From Brevibacterium luteolum (GTDB lineage: Bacteria > Actinomycetota > Actinomycetes > Actinomycetales > Brevibacteriaceae): 64,000 bases of DNA. The notes under the pieces were generated by a model that was not told the origin of the DNA, ran no database searches, and saw only the letters and a program-made list of their open reading frames with translations. Location of the stretch: the NCBI RefSeq assembly GCF_013004595.1, contig NZ_JABEMC010000002.1:186001-250000 (forward strand), written 5' to 3'. Position numbers and translations under genes: made by a program. Positions 54,122 through 62,357 of the stretch are shown one piece after another; position 1 is the first letter of the stretch; each line of letters opens with the position of its first letter.

Positions 54122-56110
54122 TCAGAGGCTGGACTTCCGGCGCAGGGTTGCGGCGGTGATGCCGATGCCTGCGATCAGCAGTGCAGCAGCGCCCCAGACG
54201 AGCGGTCCGGCTTCGCTGCCGGTGCGCGGCAGCTTGCCCTTGTCGTCCTTGCCCTTGTCGTCTTCGCCGCCCTTGCCGTCGTCGTCCTTGACATCGCCGA
54301 CGGTGAAGGTGCCGGTGAGGTCGTCGCCGCCGTCGCAGGCAACGCGGACATCGTAGGTGCCGACGTAGCTGTTCGGGCGATCGGCGTTGACGCCGTGGAC
54401 GGCGAAGGTGACGTTGCCGTCCTCATCCACGGTGGCAGTGTCCTCGTGCTTGAGGACGTCGATGCCGCGGGCTTCGACGGTCAGCTTGGCCTCGGTGCCC
54501 GGGGTGCAGCCGGTCGCCATGATGGTGACGCCCTTGTCCTCTTTGACGAAGTCAGCCGGGGAGATCTGCTCAGGCTTGACGGTCAGTCCGCGTTCGGCCG
54601 GAGCGTCGTCATCCTTGCCGCCATCCTCATCGCCGTTGTCGTCGTCTTCATCTTCGAGGTTGTAGGCGAGGGTGTGGGCGGCGAAGGCCATCGCGGGAGC
54701 GAAGATGCCAAGCGATTCCTGGTTGACGTTCTCCAGGTTGTCTTCCGGCGTGTGGTAGTAGCGGTCGCGCGGGACGCCGGCGGTGCCGCCGAACTTCTTG
54801 ACGTCTTCCTCAGTCTTGATGCCGTCGGCACCGGAGAACAGACCGGAGACCGGGACACCGTTGTCGATGAAGGCCTGGTAATCCGAACGGCCCGAGAACT
54901 CGGTGCCGATGTGCAGCTGACCCTTGTCATCGAAGTAGTCGGTGAAGATCTTCTCCAGCTCAGCCGAGCCCTCCGGAACGGTGACGCCGTCCGGGATCTT
55001 CACGTCCGAACCATCGGAGTCAAGCGTGCCGACGACGTAGTTCTCCGAGCCGATCATGTCGTAGTTGAGGTACGCCTTGATCTTCTTGAGCTCTTCAGGG
55101 TTGTTCTGCGCGAGGTCGTTGACGTAGTGGGTCGAGCCGACGAGACCGACTTCCTCTGCAACCCAGAATCCGAACCGGACCTTGTTGTCGACCTCGTAGT
55201 CGAGCCCGGCCATGCCCTCTGCAACAGCGAGGAGCCCGGCCACGCCGGAGGCGTTGTCGTTGACGCCCGGGCCCTCAGGCACACCATCGAGGTGGGCGCC
55301 CATCATCTGGACGTTGTCCGGGTCGCCGGCCTTGGTCTCGGCCATGACGTTCCAGGTCTTGACAGTCTCGAAGGTCGTCTCGACCGTCATGTCAGCGGTG
55401 ACCGCGGTCTTCGGGCCCTCCGGGTCGACGGCCTTGATCTTCTCGACCAGGGCATCGCCCTCGGCCTTGCTCAGCGCACCGGCGGGGGCATTGCCCTCGA
55501 CGCGATCGCCGGCGGTGAAGTTGCTGGCGCCATCTTGGTTGTTGTAGATGATGACGCCGGCCGCTCCGGCCTTGCTCGCGTTGGTGATCTTGTCGCCGAA
55601 GGCGCATTCGCCGCGCTGGATGAGGACGATGGTTTTCTTATTGTCCTCGGTGAAGGCCTCACCGGAGCAGCCCAGCCCGGCGTTGTCAGCTGCACCAGCT
55701 GGCAGCGTCATCGGAACGTCCGTGAGCGGCTCCTCGGTGCCTTCGGCGTTCGAGATCGTGCCGAAGTCCTTCTGCTCCACGCCGTTGACGCTCAGGCTGA
55801 CCTCGTCGAAGGTCTGCCGCGGGAGATCGAACTCCTGACGCTCAACCTCGAAGCCGGCTTCCTTCATGACGCCTTCGACGTACTCGGAGGCCTCTTCATA
55901 GCCCTTGGTGCCGAGCGCGCGGTATCCATCCTCCTTGTTGGCCTCGGAGATCTCGTTGAGCTCGGTGAGGTGCTTGAACACCTGGTCACCGGTCACACCC
56001 ATATCGGTGTGCTCTGTCACTGGAGCGGCCATTGCCGGGGAGGTCATCCCCAGACCGAGCGCCGCTGCGGCCGTAACCGCTACTGCGGCGCGTGCCAATC
56101 GATTCGACAT
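54122..56110 (-). CDS. Sortase-anchored M28 aminopeptidase with PA domain
   Basis: A 662-residue exported enzyme. A signal peptide (1-~29) precedes an N-terminal region, a PA insert (~130-230) and the M28 zinc peptidase. Ligands are seen in 'GAHLDGV', 'VNDNASG' (bridging Asp), 'VAEEVGL' (catalytic and ligand Glu), 'YDMIGS' and 'YYHTPED'. A ~110-residue beta domain follows, then a Lys/Asp-rich spacer and an LPRTG sortase signal (627-631) with helix and basic tail. It should release N-terminal amino acids at the cell wall. ATG at 56110 follows GAAAGG. Confidence 0.9.
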   Translation of the reverse strand: MSNRLARAAVAVTAAAALGLGMTSPAMAAPVTEHTDMGVTGDQVFKHLTELNEISEANKEDGYRALGTKGYEEASEYVEGVMKEAGFEVERQEFDLPRQTFDEVSLSVNGVEQKDFGTISNAEGTEEPLTDVPMTLPAGAADNAGLGCSGEAFTEDNKKTIVLIQRGECAFGDKITNASKAGAAGVIIYNNQDGASNFTAGDRVEGNAPAGALSKAEGDALVEKIKAVDPEGPKTAVTADMTVETTFETVKTWNVMAETKAGDPDNVQMMGAHLDGVPEGPGVNDNASGVAGLLAVAEGMAGLDYEVDNKVRFGFWVAEEVGLVGSTHYVNDLAQNNPEELKKIKAYLNYDMIGSENYVVGTLDSDGSDVKIPDGVTVPEGSAELEKIFTDYFDDKGQLHIGTEFSGRSDYQAFIDNGVPVSGLFSGADGIKTEEDVKKFGGTAGVPRDRYYHTPEDNLENVNQESLGIFAPAMAFAAHTLAYNLEDEDDDNGDEDGGKDDDAPAERGLTVKPEQISPADFVKEDKGVTIMATGCTPGTEAKLTVEARGIDVLKHEDTATVDEDGNVTFAVHGVNADRPNSYVGTYDVRVACDGGDDLTGTFTVGDVKDDDGKGGEDDKGKDDKGKLPRTGSEAGPLVWGAAALLIAGIGITAATLRRKSSL

Positions 56111-56213
56111 AACAACCTTTCGGTCCATCTGACGGTGCTGCACCTCGGTGTGCCTCACCCCGTGATAGTCATCACACAATGCAACACATTATTACAGTTC
56201 TCTGCACGTTTGG

Positions 56214-59750: not shown

Positions 59751-59787
59751 TTGACACACTCGCCCAGCACGACTCAGACTGTGAGCC
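59751..59787 (+). promoter_or_regulatory. Promoter of the M24 hydrolase gene, probably leaderless
   Basis: TTGACA (59751-59756), an 18-base spacer and CAGACT (59775-59780) lie 7 bases before the ATG at 59788. The transcript likely starts at or next to the start codon; no ribosome binding site is present. Confidence 0.55.
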
Positions 59788-61143
59788 ATGACACAGCCGC
59801 GTGCACCCCATCCGGGCCTGCACCCGCCGGGGGCCACCACCTCGGGCGCGGACCCGGCCACCACCTCGGGACCCGGAGACATCCACAGCATGCGCCCCGG
59901 CGGTTTCGGAGCCGAGCGCCGGCCCGAACCGCGGCCGGGAGACGCCGGCACACCGGGGGCTGGCGGATTGCTGTTCTCCGCTGAGGAATACGAGCAGCGG
60001 CTGGCCGCCGTCCGGCGCCGGATGCGCGATCAGGGACTGTCCGGGCTCATCGTCACCGACCCGGCGAACATGTTCTACCTCACCGGATACAACGCCTGGT
60101 CCTTCTACACCCCGCAGCTGCTCTACGTCCCGGCATCGGGCCCGATGACACTGTTCGCTCGGGAGATGGACGCCCACGGGGCGCAGCGCACCTGCTGGCT
60201 GCCCGAAGAGGATATCGTCGGTTACCCCGAGCGCTACGTCCACCGCCCGCACATCCACCCCTTCGACTGGGTTGCGTTCGCCCTGCGGCAGCGCTGGGAG
60301 GTCGCCCCGGCCGCCCACGGGTGCATCGGCGTGGAGATGGACAGCCACTACTACTCCCCGCGCGCCCACCGCGCACTCGTCCACGGCATCCCAGAGTGGA
60401 CTCTCGTCGACTCCTTCGAGCTCGTCAACTGGATCCGGGCGATCAAATCTCCAGCCGAGATCGCGATCATGCGACAAGCCGCTCAGGTCACGACCGCGGC
60501 GATGAACGCCGCACTCAACGCCGTTGAGCCAGGGGCCCGGCAGAACGACGTCGCCGCCGCGATCGCCCACGCTCAGGCGGCCGGCACCGCCGAGGTGTGG
60601 GGAGACTTCCCGGCGATCGTGCCGATGCTGCCGACCGGTGAGGGCGCCGACACCCCACACCTGACGTGGACCGACCGCAGGCTCAGGTCCGGGGAGCCGG
60701 TCGTCATCGAACTCGCCGGCGCCCACCACCGCTACCACGTGCCGCTGGCCCGCACCGTCATGCTCGGCGAGCCGCCGGCTCAGCTGCAGCACACCGCAGA
60801 TGTCGTCGCCGAAGCGCTCAACGAGGTGCTGGAGACGATGCGCCCGGACGTGCCGGTCGCCGAACTCGCCCGGGTGTGGAATGCGGTGCTGTCCCGCTAC
60901 GAGATGGTCAAGGAGTCGAGGCTGGGCTATTCGATCGGGATCGGCTACCCGCCGGACTGGGGCGAGCGGACGATCTCCCTGCGCAGCGAGGACGAACAGG
61001 TGCTCGCCGCCGGGATGACGTTCCACGTCATCGCCGGCATGTGGCTCGATGGCATCGGCTACGAAGTCAGCGAACCTGTCGCCGTCACCGCCACCGGCGT
61101 CGAGCGCTTCACCGACTTCCCGCAGAACCTCATCCGCAAGTGA
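59788..61143 (+). CDS. M24-family hydrolase, ectoine hydrolase-like (DoeA/EutD)
   Basis: The 451-residue pita-bread-fold protein has an N-terminal creatinase domain with 'MFYLTGYNAWSFYTPQLL' and 'REMDAHGAQRTCWLPEEDIVGYPERYV', strongly like ectoine hydrolase as I remember it. The C-terminal M24 domain lacks the full five-ligand metal set of methionine aminopeptidase ('VIELAGAHHRYHVPLAR'), as in creatinase and ectoine hydrolases. A ~60-residue Pro/Gly/Thr-rich N-terminal extension is unusual; the promoter position supports it. An M20 deacylase is coupled downstream. Substrate ectoine is inferred. Confidence 0.78.
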   Translation: MTQPRAPHPGLHPPGATTSGADPATTSGPGDIHSMRPGGFGAERRPEPRPGDAGTPGAGGLLFSAEEYEQRLAAVRRRMRDQGLSGLIVTDPANMFYLTGYNAWSFYTPQLLYVPASGPMTLFAREMDAHGAQRTCWLPEEDIVGYPERYVHRPHIHPFDWVAFALRQRWEVAPAAHGCIGVEMDSHYYSPRAHRALVHGIPEWTLVDSFELVNWIRAIKSPAEIAIMRQAAQVTTAAMNAALNAVEPGARQNDVAAAIAHAQAAGTAEVWGDFPAIVPMLPTGEGADTPHLTWTDRRLRSGEPVVIELAGAHHRYHVPLARTVMLGEPPAQLQHTADVVAEALNEVLETMRPDVPVAELARVWNAVLSRYEMVKESRLGYSIGIGYPPDWGERTISLRSEDEQVLAAGMTFHVIAGMWLDGIGYEVSEPVAVTATGVERFTDFPQNLIRK

Positions 61144-62357
61144 CGACTGCGATGGGCGGGGCTGACGGAGAGCTGGCAGGCCGGCTGGTGGAGCTGACCG
61201 GGGACCTCATCCGCGCCCGAGGTGAGAACCCCGGTGGGACCGAAGAGGCGACCGTTGATGTCATCGCCGGGTTCGCGCGCGCTCATGGGCTTCACGTGCA
61301 CATCGCCGAGGTGGCCAGCGGCCGGCCGAACATCGTCGTCACCGCACCAGCGGCAGAGGGTGCGGCGAGCGCCGCGCCGGACGTGCCCGCAGAGGGCCTG
61401 CTGTTCCTCGGTCACTCCGATGTCGTACCCGCTGGAGACGGCTGGTCCGGCGATCCGTTCGAACCCCGGCTGACCGCGGGCTGGCTCACCGGGCGCGGGG
61501 CCGCGGACATGAAGGGCGGGCTTGCCGCGGTCTTGTGCGCGCTCACCGACGCACATGCCGCCGATTGTCTCGCGGCTGCTGTGAGTCTGGCGGTCACCGT
61601 CGACGAGGAGGATCTGGGCACCGGCATCCGGCAGCTCGTGGCAGACGGGCTCGGCCCGCACGCCGGGCAGCGCTTCGCCGCGTGCGTCGTCGCCGAGCCG
61701 ACGGATCTGGACATCGTCACCGCCTGCCGCGGAGACGCCTATCTGGAGGTGCAGCTGACCGGCGTCTCGGCTCATTCGGGCAGGCCGGCCGATGGCCGCT
61801 CGGCGATCATCGCCGGAGCGAGGCTCATCAGCGTACTCGTGGAGAACCAGGAACATCTCGACGCACGTGCTCATCCGCTGCTCGGCGCCGGGTCGTGGAG
61901 CCCGGGCATCATCAACGGCGGGCAGGGCACCTCGATGGTCGCCGATGCCTGCCGGATCTCACTCGACCGCCGGCTCCTGCCAGACGAGGACGCCGCCGAC
62001 ATCGCCGGCTGGCTTCGCGCTGTCGCGGCCGAGGCAGGCATCACCGGTGATGGGATCGGACTCGACGTCGCGGTGACGATGGAGATGCCGGGCTTCATCA
62101 CCGACCGTGACTCCCCCGCGATCACGACGCTTGAGGCCGCAGCCGAGGCGGTGACCGGGCAGGTGCCCGAATGCACGGTGTGGACGGCAGCCTGCGACGG
62201 CGGCTACATCGCCCGGGACTTGGGGATCCCGACCATCGTGTACGGTCCAGGCAGCATCAGCGAACAGGCCCACCATGTCGATGAGGCGATCGAGGTCGCC
62301 GAACTCGTACGCGCCTGCCGGGTCTACCGGCAGTTCATCGCCCGGACCTGCGGCTGA
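61140..62357 (+). CDS. M20-family deacylase/peptidase (ArgE/DapE type)
   Basis: The 405-residue di-zinc hydrolase has 'LGHSDVVPA' (His, Asp), 'GRGAADMKGG' (bridging Asp), 'VDEEDLGTG' (Glu pair), 'VAEPTD' and a last His in 'SEQAHHVDE'. It is of the N-acetylornithine/succinyl-diaminopimelate type. GTG at 61140 overlaps the stop of the M24 gene. If that gene is an ectoine hydrolase, this one could deacetylate N-acetyl-2,4-diaminobutyrate, a job normally done by the unrelated DoeB/EutE. Confidence 0.83.
   Translation: MTTAMGGADGELAGRLVELTGDLIRARGENPGGTEEATVDVIAGFARAHGLHVHIAEVASGRPNIVVTAPAAEGAASAAPDVPAEGLLFLGHSDVVPAGDGWSGDPFEPRLTAGWLTGRGAADMKGGLAAVLCALTDAHAADCLAAAVSLAVTVDEEDLGTGIRQLVADGLGPHAGQRFAACVVAEPTDLDIVTACRGDAYLEVQLTGVSAHSGRPADGRSAIIAGARLISVLVENQEHLDARAHPLLGAGSWSPGIINGGQGTSMVADACRISLDRRLLPDEDAADIAGWLRAVAAEAGITGDGIGLDVAVTMEMPGFITDRDSPAITTLEAAAEAVTGQVPECTVWTAACDGGYIARDLGIPTIVYGPGSISEQAHHVDEAIEVAELVRACRVYRQFIARTCG

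Follow-up and report, generated by a model that had tools for sequence, protein, structure and literature searches.

An EutD-like hydrolase gene joined to an ArgE/DapE-type deacylase gene: a putative ectoine-scavenging pair in Brevibacterium luteolum

In a 64,000-nucleotide stretch of the Brevibacterium luteolum genome (contig NZ_JABEMC010000002.1, positions 186,001 to 250,000; hereafter, the window), a gene for a protein of the M24 family overlaps a gene for a protein of the M20 family. We consider it likely that this pair is the core of an ectoine-scavenging system, in which an EutD-like hydrolase would act with an ArgE/DapE-type deacetylase that replaces EutE. The two genes are as follows.

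59788–61143, plus strand: M24 open reading frame of 451 amino acids with an ATG start, EutD/DoeA-like, putative ectoine/hydroxyectoine hydrolase (profile, PDB, and fold matches).
61140–62357, plus strand: M20 open reading frame, ArgE/DapE-type deacylase, putative N-alpha-acetyl-L-2,4-diaminobutyrate deacetylase (profile matches, metal-site motifs).

The M20 gene starts with GTG at 61140 (an ATG at 61152 is an alternative), and with this start it overlaps the stop codon of the M24 gene by 4 nucleotides. A preliminary description of the region had proposed that an ectoine hydrolase-like M24 enzyme is coupled to an ArgE/DapE-type M20 enzyme, and the overlap and the profile, PDB, and fold matches described below bear this out. 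Because our home-made codon-usage gene caller misses some genes (the M20 gene of the window among them), neighboring genes were checked by tblastn.

The best NCBIfam match of the M24 protein was TIGR02993 (ectoine_eutD; 403.8 bits, E 8.5e-121), the second was NF038259 (DoeA_2; 225.4 bits, below its cut-off of 575), and in Pfam the protein matched Peptidase_M24 and Creatinase_N. A search of PDB sequences returned DoeA (6twj/6twk) at about 2e-102 and the next protein, a prolidase, at 3.7e-22, an E-value gap of 80 orders of magnitude in favor of DoeA. In a fold search the lead was about 15 orders: the five top PDB matches were chains of Halomonas elongata EutD (8.8e-39 to 4.5e-37; the best, 6twk, at 41% identity), and the best other protein was PepE (1.8e-23). 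The model used for this search was made with AlphaFold for the core of the protein from an 11-row alignment, and had a predicted local distance difference test (pLDDT) score of 82.6, with core residues 219–227 and 329–336 below 50. Identity to the EutD of Paracoccus was 44%. We also compared 153 positions that are at least 94% conserved in 17 EutE-linked EutD proteins. The window M24 protein is identical at 111 of them, 32 actinobacterial relatives at 102–116, 15 Bacillota proteins at 120–128, and five DoeA_2-type proteins at 70–72; the four other M24 proteins of the B. luteolum genome matched at 35, 47, 26, and 49. In the PDB sequence alignment, Glu308 lies opposite Glu255 of DoeA, which is reportedly the covalent nucleophile; EutD/DoeA enzymes have reportedly lost the usual M24 metal ligands. 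Ectoine hydrolases of the EutD/DoeA kind are thus the best matches of the M24 protein by sequence, fold, and profile.

The M20 protein matched the ArgE/DapE model TIGR01910 best, at 209.8 bits, just below the subfamily cut-off of 217.6; relatives from loci L040 (219.7) and L042 (partial; 223.8) scored above the cut-off and one from L061 (206.9) below it. It was over cut-off for Pfam PF01546 (M20) and PF07687 (M20_dimer), and far below the AcOrn-deacetyl equivalog cut-off (184.6 versus 297.7 bits). The motifs GHSDV, ADMKGG, DEED, AEPTD, and AHHVDE, at residues 91, 122, 155, 185, and 377, align with the same motifs of acetylornithine deacetylase 7rsf, and we take them to be the metal-binding site. 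Of 53 families scored for this protein, DoeB2 (NF038260) did not rank in the best 25; the 25th scored 66.5 bits, and the cut-off for DoeB2 is 550. The ArgE/DapE and Pfam matches agree with the earlier assignment of the partner as an M20 enzyme and not an AstE/AspA-type DoeB/EutE.

We searched a draw of 297 genomes of the order with the M24 protein (E ≤ 1e-40) and the M20 protein (E ≤ 1e-55). M24 matches were found in 40 genomes, 24 of them close (52–100% identity) and 16 distant (32–36%). The M20 protein was matched in ten genomes, all of which have a close M24 protein (Fisher p 1.6e-12; this test and those below are on genome counts and ignore shared ancestry), and by their coordinates each of the ten M20 genes lies within 1.4 kb of the close M24 gene. 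Outside the genus, M20 was present in 8 of 9 genomes with a close M24 and in 0 of 264 others. Because M20 always occurs with a close M24 gene and within 1.4 kb of it, we conclude that the pairing is no accident.

The preliminary description had suggested a search for doeB elsewhere in the genome, and a complete doe/eut operon there would have told against its reading. The EutE model TIGR02994 gave no match in the B. luteolum genome at E ≤ 0.001, with a positive control that responded (two of two proteobacterial genomes were over cut-off, and seven Gram-positive genomes were without a match), and no second EutD-like protein was found among the genome's five M24 matches. Among the 297 genomes, 18 had TIGR02994 matches at this threshold, none over the cut-off of 402.7. 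PF04952 had been tried as an EutE test and also gave no match in the genome, but the model, only 76 positions long, was set aside in favor of TIGR02994 with its positive control. DoeB2 had no match in the genome at E ≤ 1e-80; at this threshold it was found in 41 of the 297 genomes, in one of them over cut-off. Of the other same-genus genomes that have M24 without M20, 12 of 13 carry DoeB2-like homologues below cut-off, which may or may not fill the deacetylase gap there. EutE-like genes were seen in three same-genus genomes: one (G262:C36:539750-540780, locus L157) appears as three separate matches, one of them with an in-frame stop, and those of G208 and G272 are unbroken, at 241.7 and 244.8 bits, below cut-off.

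An EhuABCD-type operon lies elsewhere in the B. luteolum genome (C1:602072-605320). Its products scored over the NCBIfam cut-offs for EhuB (211.4 versus 190.9), EhuC (215.4 versus 196.95), and EhuD (218.3 versus 205.2), and EhuA, at 344.2 bits, fell just below its cut-off of 345.4 (models TIGR02995, TIGR03004, TIGR03003, and TIGR03005); EhuB was over cut-off in none of 14 control genomes. In the draw, EhuB was over cut-off in 20 genomes: 13 of the 24 with a close M24 and 7 of the 273 others (p 9e-12). At E ≤ 1e-40 it was found in 58, with 18 of 24 against 40 of 273 (p 8e-10), and also in 13 of the 16 genomes with a distant M24. Within the genus, EhuB at E ≤ 1e-40 was present in 15 of 15 genomes with M24 (11 over cut-off) and in 2 of 9 without (p 1e-4). 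Importer genes also stand in the cluster itself in some relatives. That of Cryobacterium ruanii (L070) holds EhuB (245.4) and EhuC (248.7), both over their cut-offs, along with a D-2-hydroxyacid dehydrogenase, a class-III aminotransferase, a flavin adenine dinucleotide/iron–sulfur (FAD/FeS) dehydrogenase, a semialdehyde dehydrogenase, M24, a class-I aminotransferase, M20, and GntR, and L071 has the same order by tblastn. Homologues of EhuA and EhuD lie at the edges of L040 and L080, and in the genome of L040 (G183) an EhuB over cut-off is encoded about 1 kb outside the L040 stretch. Since the genome has an EhuABCD-type importer and such genes flank the cluster in relatives, the pair very probably acts on ectoine or hydroxyectoine. 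Breakdown of some other cyclic amide, which the preliminary description had kept as an option, is less likely because the Ehu-type importer in the genome co-occurs with M24.

The sequences themselves show what the genes are, their overlap and co-occurrence, the importer, and the failure to find EutE; from these we infer both reactions, the order of the steps, and the downstream enzymes as follows. The importer would take up ectoine, and probably also 5-hydroxyectoine. The M24 protein would open the ectoine ring to give N-alpha-acetyl-L-2,4-diaminobutyrate, as EutD/DoeA does and with the same active-site glutamate, and the M20 protein, as a stand-in for EutE, would then remove the acetyl group; compared with N-alpha-acetylornithine, on which ArgE acts, the presumed M20 substrate has one carbon less. 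An aminotransferase and an aldehyde dehydrogenase, with genes at other places in the genome, would then process diaminobutyrate further.

Gene order in relatives was analyzed in two sets of loci. Among 20 larger loci (L036–L055), the order M24, class-I pyridoxal phosphate (PLP) aminotransferase, M20 occurs in seven, and in L036 and L046 the M24 and M20 genes are direct neighbors, as in the window; M20 was not found by tblastn in L045 and five same-genus loci of this set. The second set, the named loci, comprises the best 80 of 591 relatives and is biased to close ones, with flanks of at most 9 kb and some shorter contigs; 32 are actinobacterial, 25 are from Bacillota, and 23 are proteobacterial, and because several are near-copies the numbers count loci, not events. 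M20 is present in 26/32 actinobacterial, 0/25 Bacillota, and 2/23 proteobacterial loci (these two at only 28–31% identity); EutE in 0/32, 0/25, and 17/23; and AbgB in 0/32, 17/25, and 0/23. The six actinobacterial loci without M20 are five of Brevibacterium (L056, L058, L059, L062, and L072) and one of Ornithinimicrobium (L082). The class-I aminotransferase was found in 24 of the 32 actinobacterial loci (in 21 of the 32 between M24 and M20) and in none from the other two phyla. An EutB homologue occurs in one actinobacterial locus and EutC in none, and a ProP/MHS-type transporter homologue lies in the flanks of 17. A quick maximum-likelihood tree of 65 M24 rows, rooted on DoeA_2 and supported by the Shimodaira–Hasegawa-like approximate likelihood ratio test only, grouped the actinobacterial proteins in a single branch (support 100), those from Bacillota in another (99), and those from Proteobacteria in two (100 each), with one Pelagibacteraceae row on its own. 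The window protein and that of its sister species group with three from Brevibacterium (97), and B. daeguense falls elsewhere in the actinobacterial branch.

We tentatively propose, at somewhat less than even likelihood, that M24, class-I PLP aminotransferase, and M20 make up an actinobacterial module and that each EutD lineage has its own deacylase: EutE in Proteobacteria, an AbgB-type M20 in Bacillota, and an independently recruited ArgE/DapE-type enzyme in Actinomycetota. The linked D-2-hydroxyacid dehydrogenase, FAD/FeS dehydrogenase, and class-I PLP enzyme would then be a hydroxyectoine branch that replaces EutABC.

Other arrangements were also seen. In L120, from the uncultured alphaproteobacterium AG-453-O22, an EutD-like M24 gene (391.6 bits) lies within 1.6 kb of a different M20 gene (28% identity to that of the window), possibly a further recruitment of an M20 enzyme. 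The Bacillota-type cluster L088 holds genes for an EutD-like M24 protein, a D-2-hydroxyacid dehydrogenase-like protein, a GntR-like protein, a class-III aminotransferase, a semialdehyde dehydrogenase, AbgB, and an EutB-like protein. The D-2-hydroxyacid dehydrogenase recurs in actinobacterial and Bacillota clusters; we know of no role for it in ectoine catabolism. In Brevibacterium-type loci with M24 and without M20 (L056, L058, L059, L062, L072, L037–L039, L041, and L055), the M24 gene lies by genes for an AsnC/Lrp protein and a class-III aminotransferase, and in L037–L039, L041, and L055 also by a gene of the L-lactate permease family.

Candidates for the later steps are scattered over the B. 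luteolum genome. At C12:425869-429441 lie a class-III aminotransferase (PRK06541, 767.3 bits) that shares 79% identity with its counterpart next to M24 in other Brevibacterium, an AsnC/Lrp homologue (60%), and an aldehyde dehydrogenase whose nearest model is aminobutyraldehyde dehydrogenase (610.0 versus a cut-off of 615); ATP-binding cassette ATPases matched by the EhuA query flank the cluster on both sides. Because this cluster may equally serve polyamines, it is only a candidate for doeD/doeX/doeC, and eight proteins of the genome pass the Pfam cut-off for class-III aminotransferases. The linked class-I aminotransferase has a 60% homologue, encoded at C16:122721-123917. By eye, the gene beside it looks like a permease (it has no NCBIfam match at 1e-30), and glycyl-tRNA synthetase and tRNA-dihydrouridine synthase genes lie around it; both are likewise found on the flanks of the M24 locus in other Brevibacterium. 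The same contig also encodes a D-2-hydroxyacid dehydrogenase homologue (50%). The ectoine synthase model PF06339 had no match in the genome, but no control responded and we do not claim that ectoine synthesis is absent.

Several observations weigh against an ectoine-scavenging pair. The M24 protein lies below the curated TIGR02993 equivalog cut-off of 613 bits, as do the Gram-positive relatives scanned likewise (Citricoccus, 415.3; Cryobacterium, 438.6; Lentibacillus, 510.8); the EutD of Paracoccus, whose gene precedes an EutE gene of 592.2 bits, scores 795.4. No importer, aminotransferase, or regulator gene was found adjacent to the pair within the window. In 13 other same-genus genomes of the draw, M24 is present but M20 has no match at E ≤ 1e-55, and 2 of the 10 genomes with M20 (G249 and G257) have weak EutE-like matches, of 93.5 and 98.3 bits, far below cut-off. 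The Fisher tests leave shared ancestry aside, and outside the genus the link between EhuB (E ≤ 1e-40) and a close M24 is not significant (3/9 versus 38/264, p 0.14), although 17 of the 32 named actinobacterial loci carry the ProP/MHS-type homologue mentioned above. Finally, the D-2-hydroxyacid dehydrogenase, FAD/FeS dehydrogenase, class-I aminotransferase, and amidase that are linked to the module have no role in the textbook route.

Some of these linked enzymes would find a place if the pair served mainly 5-hydroxyectoine or another cyclic amidine, with ectoine as a minor substrate, and if the aminotransferase and both dehydrogenases processed the hydroxylated product. Their recurrence beside M24 and M20 in other actinobacteria, the homologues of the aminotransferase and the D-2-hydroxyacid dehydrogenase in the B. 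luteolum genome itself, and the scarcity of EutB and EutC in the actinobacterial loci all favor this, but the lineage of the window keeps only M24 and M20 together, and we regard it as unlikely. Proteobacterial EutD accepts both ectoine and hydroxyectoine (PMC8739950) and the names of the Ehu models include the two compounds, so that this alternative overlaps with a pair that serves ectoine.

That the M24 protein is an ectoine hydrolase and its M20 neighbor has another job, either as a biosynthetic ArgE/DapE enzyme or on another N-acyl amino acid, is improbable. Such a job would suit a protein just below the ArgE/DapE subfamily cut-off and far below the equivalog models, and it would suit the 13 same-genus genomes without M20; against it, no M20 at E ≤ 1e-55 was found in a genome without a close M24, or farther than 1.4 kb from it, and M20 occupies the place of EutE in proteobacteria and of AbgB in Bacillota. 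Ordinary peptide turnover by a Xaa-Pro aminopeptidase or prolidase (M24) and a general ArgE/DapE deacylase (M20) accords with the Pfam peptidase-family labels and with prolidases as the next PDB matches, but is very improbable given the lead of DoeA in sequence and fold, the far fewer EutD-conserved positions matched by the genome's four other M24 proteins, and the co-occurrence of M24 with an ectoine-type importer.

An ectoine-scavenging pair of this kind resembles several known systems. Like EutD–EutE (DoeA–DoeB) of Proteobacteria, it has an M24 protein (41–46% identity) with the DoeA fold and conserved segments, a hydrolase gene that adjoins a deacylase gene, and an Ehu-type importer in the genome. 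Unlike that system, it is found in Actinomycetota, its M24 protein is below the TIGR02993 cut-off, its deacylase is of the M20 ArgE/DapE type, and the actinobacterial flanks searched are without EutC and almost without EutB homologues. DoeA_2–DoeB2 (NF038259/NF038260) likewise combines M24 with an M20-type deacylase for ectoine and occurs in the window's order (L053), but DoeB2, of the M20D type, also matches TIGR01891 amidohydrolases, and the M24 proteins of L050–L054, which are only 32–33% identical to that of the window, are encoded next to an EctB-like transaminase and a semialdehyde dehydrogenase. ArgE N-acetylornithine deacetylase shares the ArgE/DapE group and a near-identical substrate chemistry (an alpha-acetylated diamino acid, one carbon longer), but it is biosynthetic, and the M20 protein is far below the AcOrn-deacetyl model. 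Because the M24 protein falls short of the EutD cut-off and is partnered with neither EutE nor DoeB2, we class the system as an actinobacterial EutD-like clade with an ArgE/DapE-type deacylase.

Ectoine consumers have been said to be restricted to Proteobacteria (PMC5924519), in which MocR-type ectoine regulons have been described (PMC5320631). All 363 eutD/eutE pairs of PMC8739950 are proteobacterial and were required to be directly adjacent, and the window, with no eutE beside M24, falls outside that definition. In a methanotroph whose DoeB shares 22% identity with the Halomonas protein, N-alpha-acetyl-diaminobutyrate builds up when doeB is mutated; the same paper notes a doeBDAC cluster in Tsukamurella (Actinobacteria), and an ectoine route in actinobacteria was thus already on record (PMC7192451). 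Putative clusters in Bacillota, Actinomycetota, and Archaea, for which experimental proof is called for, are reported by Boas Lichty et al. 2026 (PMC13188858); as here, EutD homologues (there from Actinomycetota and Bacillota) occur without eutE, which is stated for the Bacillaceae examined, and with an amidohydrolase gene, in that case abgB, but those clusters center on eutBCD-atf and abgB-thrA-adh, the latter present in the same Bacillaceae. Its main text does not mention ArgE, DapE, acetylornithine, deacylase, M20, Brevibacterium, Kocuria, or Arthrobacter. Our literature search found nothing that joins ectoine hydrolase with acetylornithine deacetylase, ectoine utilization with Micrococcales, or DoeB2 with ectoine. 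The preliminary description's alternative route for N-acetyl-diaminobutyrate gains from the co-occurrence of M24 and M20 and from the failure to find EutE, but M20 deacetylases had already been linked to ectoine catabolism: DoeB2 is curated in NCBIfam, and Gram-positive abgB clusters without eutE are in PMC13188858. The new element is a third, putative deacetylase, of the ArgE/DapE type, together with the conserved module that holds it in actinobacteria.

Ectoine, a nutrient of wide occurrence that is also sold commercially, was long thought to be degraded by Proteobacteria alone, and catalogues that rest on eutD–eutE adjacency would miss the M24–M20 route. If our interpretation is right, some Brevibacterium, Kocuria, Arthrobacter, Williamsia, Gordonia, and others can use ectoine as food by means of a separate set of enzymes, genes now named as peptidases or ArgE/DapE deacylases would be renamed, and it becomes possible to test whether unrelated deacylases were recruited repeatedly for a single step of a pathway.

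The M24 protein has an unusual front, and the following features lie at or before the start of its gene.

59751–59756, plus strand: TTGACA, a −35-like box by sequence, kept in the sister species and 13 same-genus loci.
59775–59780, plus strand: CAGACT, a putative −10-like box by sequence.
59780–59795, plus strand: TGTGA-N6-ACACA, a weak CRP/GlxR-like site over the start codon with one mismatch (low confidence).
59788–59967, plus strand: Pro/Gly/Thr-rich front of 60 residues, with counterparts in same-genus loci.

TTGACA lies 37 nucleotides before the ATG in the window and the sister species and 36 before it in the 13 other same-genus loci; the −10-like box is CAGACT, 7 nucleotides before the ATG, in the first two and CACACT, CAGACT, or CAGAAT, 6 nucleotides before it, in the others. 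With a −10-like box so close to the ATG, the mRNA is likely to be leaderless or nearly so. The sister species has the same 60-residue front and all 13 other same-genus loci examined have an in-frame front of about 51 residues; a like front is absent from the five loci of other genera or outlying species compared (L012, L018, L022, L024, and L069). Between the window and the sister species, nucleotide identity is 92% in the front, 95% in the core, and 85% in the 120 nucleotides upstream; 10 of the 15 substitutions in the front are at third codon positions, and 4 of 13 changed codons alter the residue in the front, compared with 10 of 54 in the core. Translation of the front probably starts at 59788; the same-genus counterparts, the third-position bias, and the conserved TTGACA uphold the earlier proposal of a front supported by the promoter position.

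The TGTGA-N6-ACACA sequence, which weakly resembles a CRP/GlxR site, is one of six such sites in the window (chance mean, 1.2) and is not used as evidence. In the 13 same-genus loci (L008–L011, L013–L017, L019–L021, and L023), TGTGA-N6-TCAC, a box like a CRP/GlxR site, lies between the −35 box and the M24 ATG, which suggests carbon-source control; the sister species is without it. The M24 gene is divergent from an AsnC/Lrp gene in five larger same-genus loci examined. Elsewhere in the window (54122–56179, minus strand), an open reading frame of 685 amino acids, with a signal-like start and an LPRTG-type C-terminal anchor, resembles by eye a wall-anchored secreted aminopeptidase.

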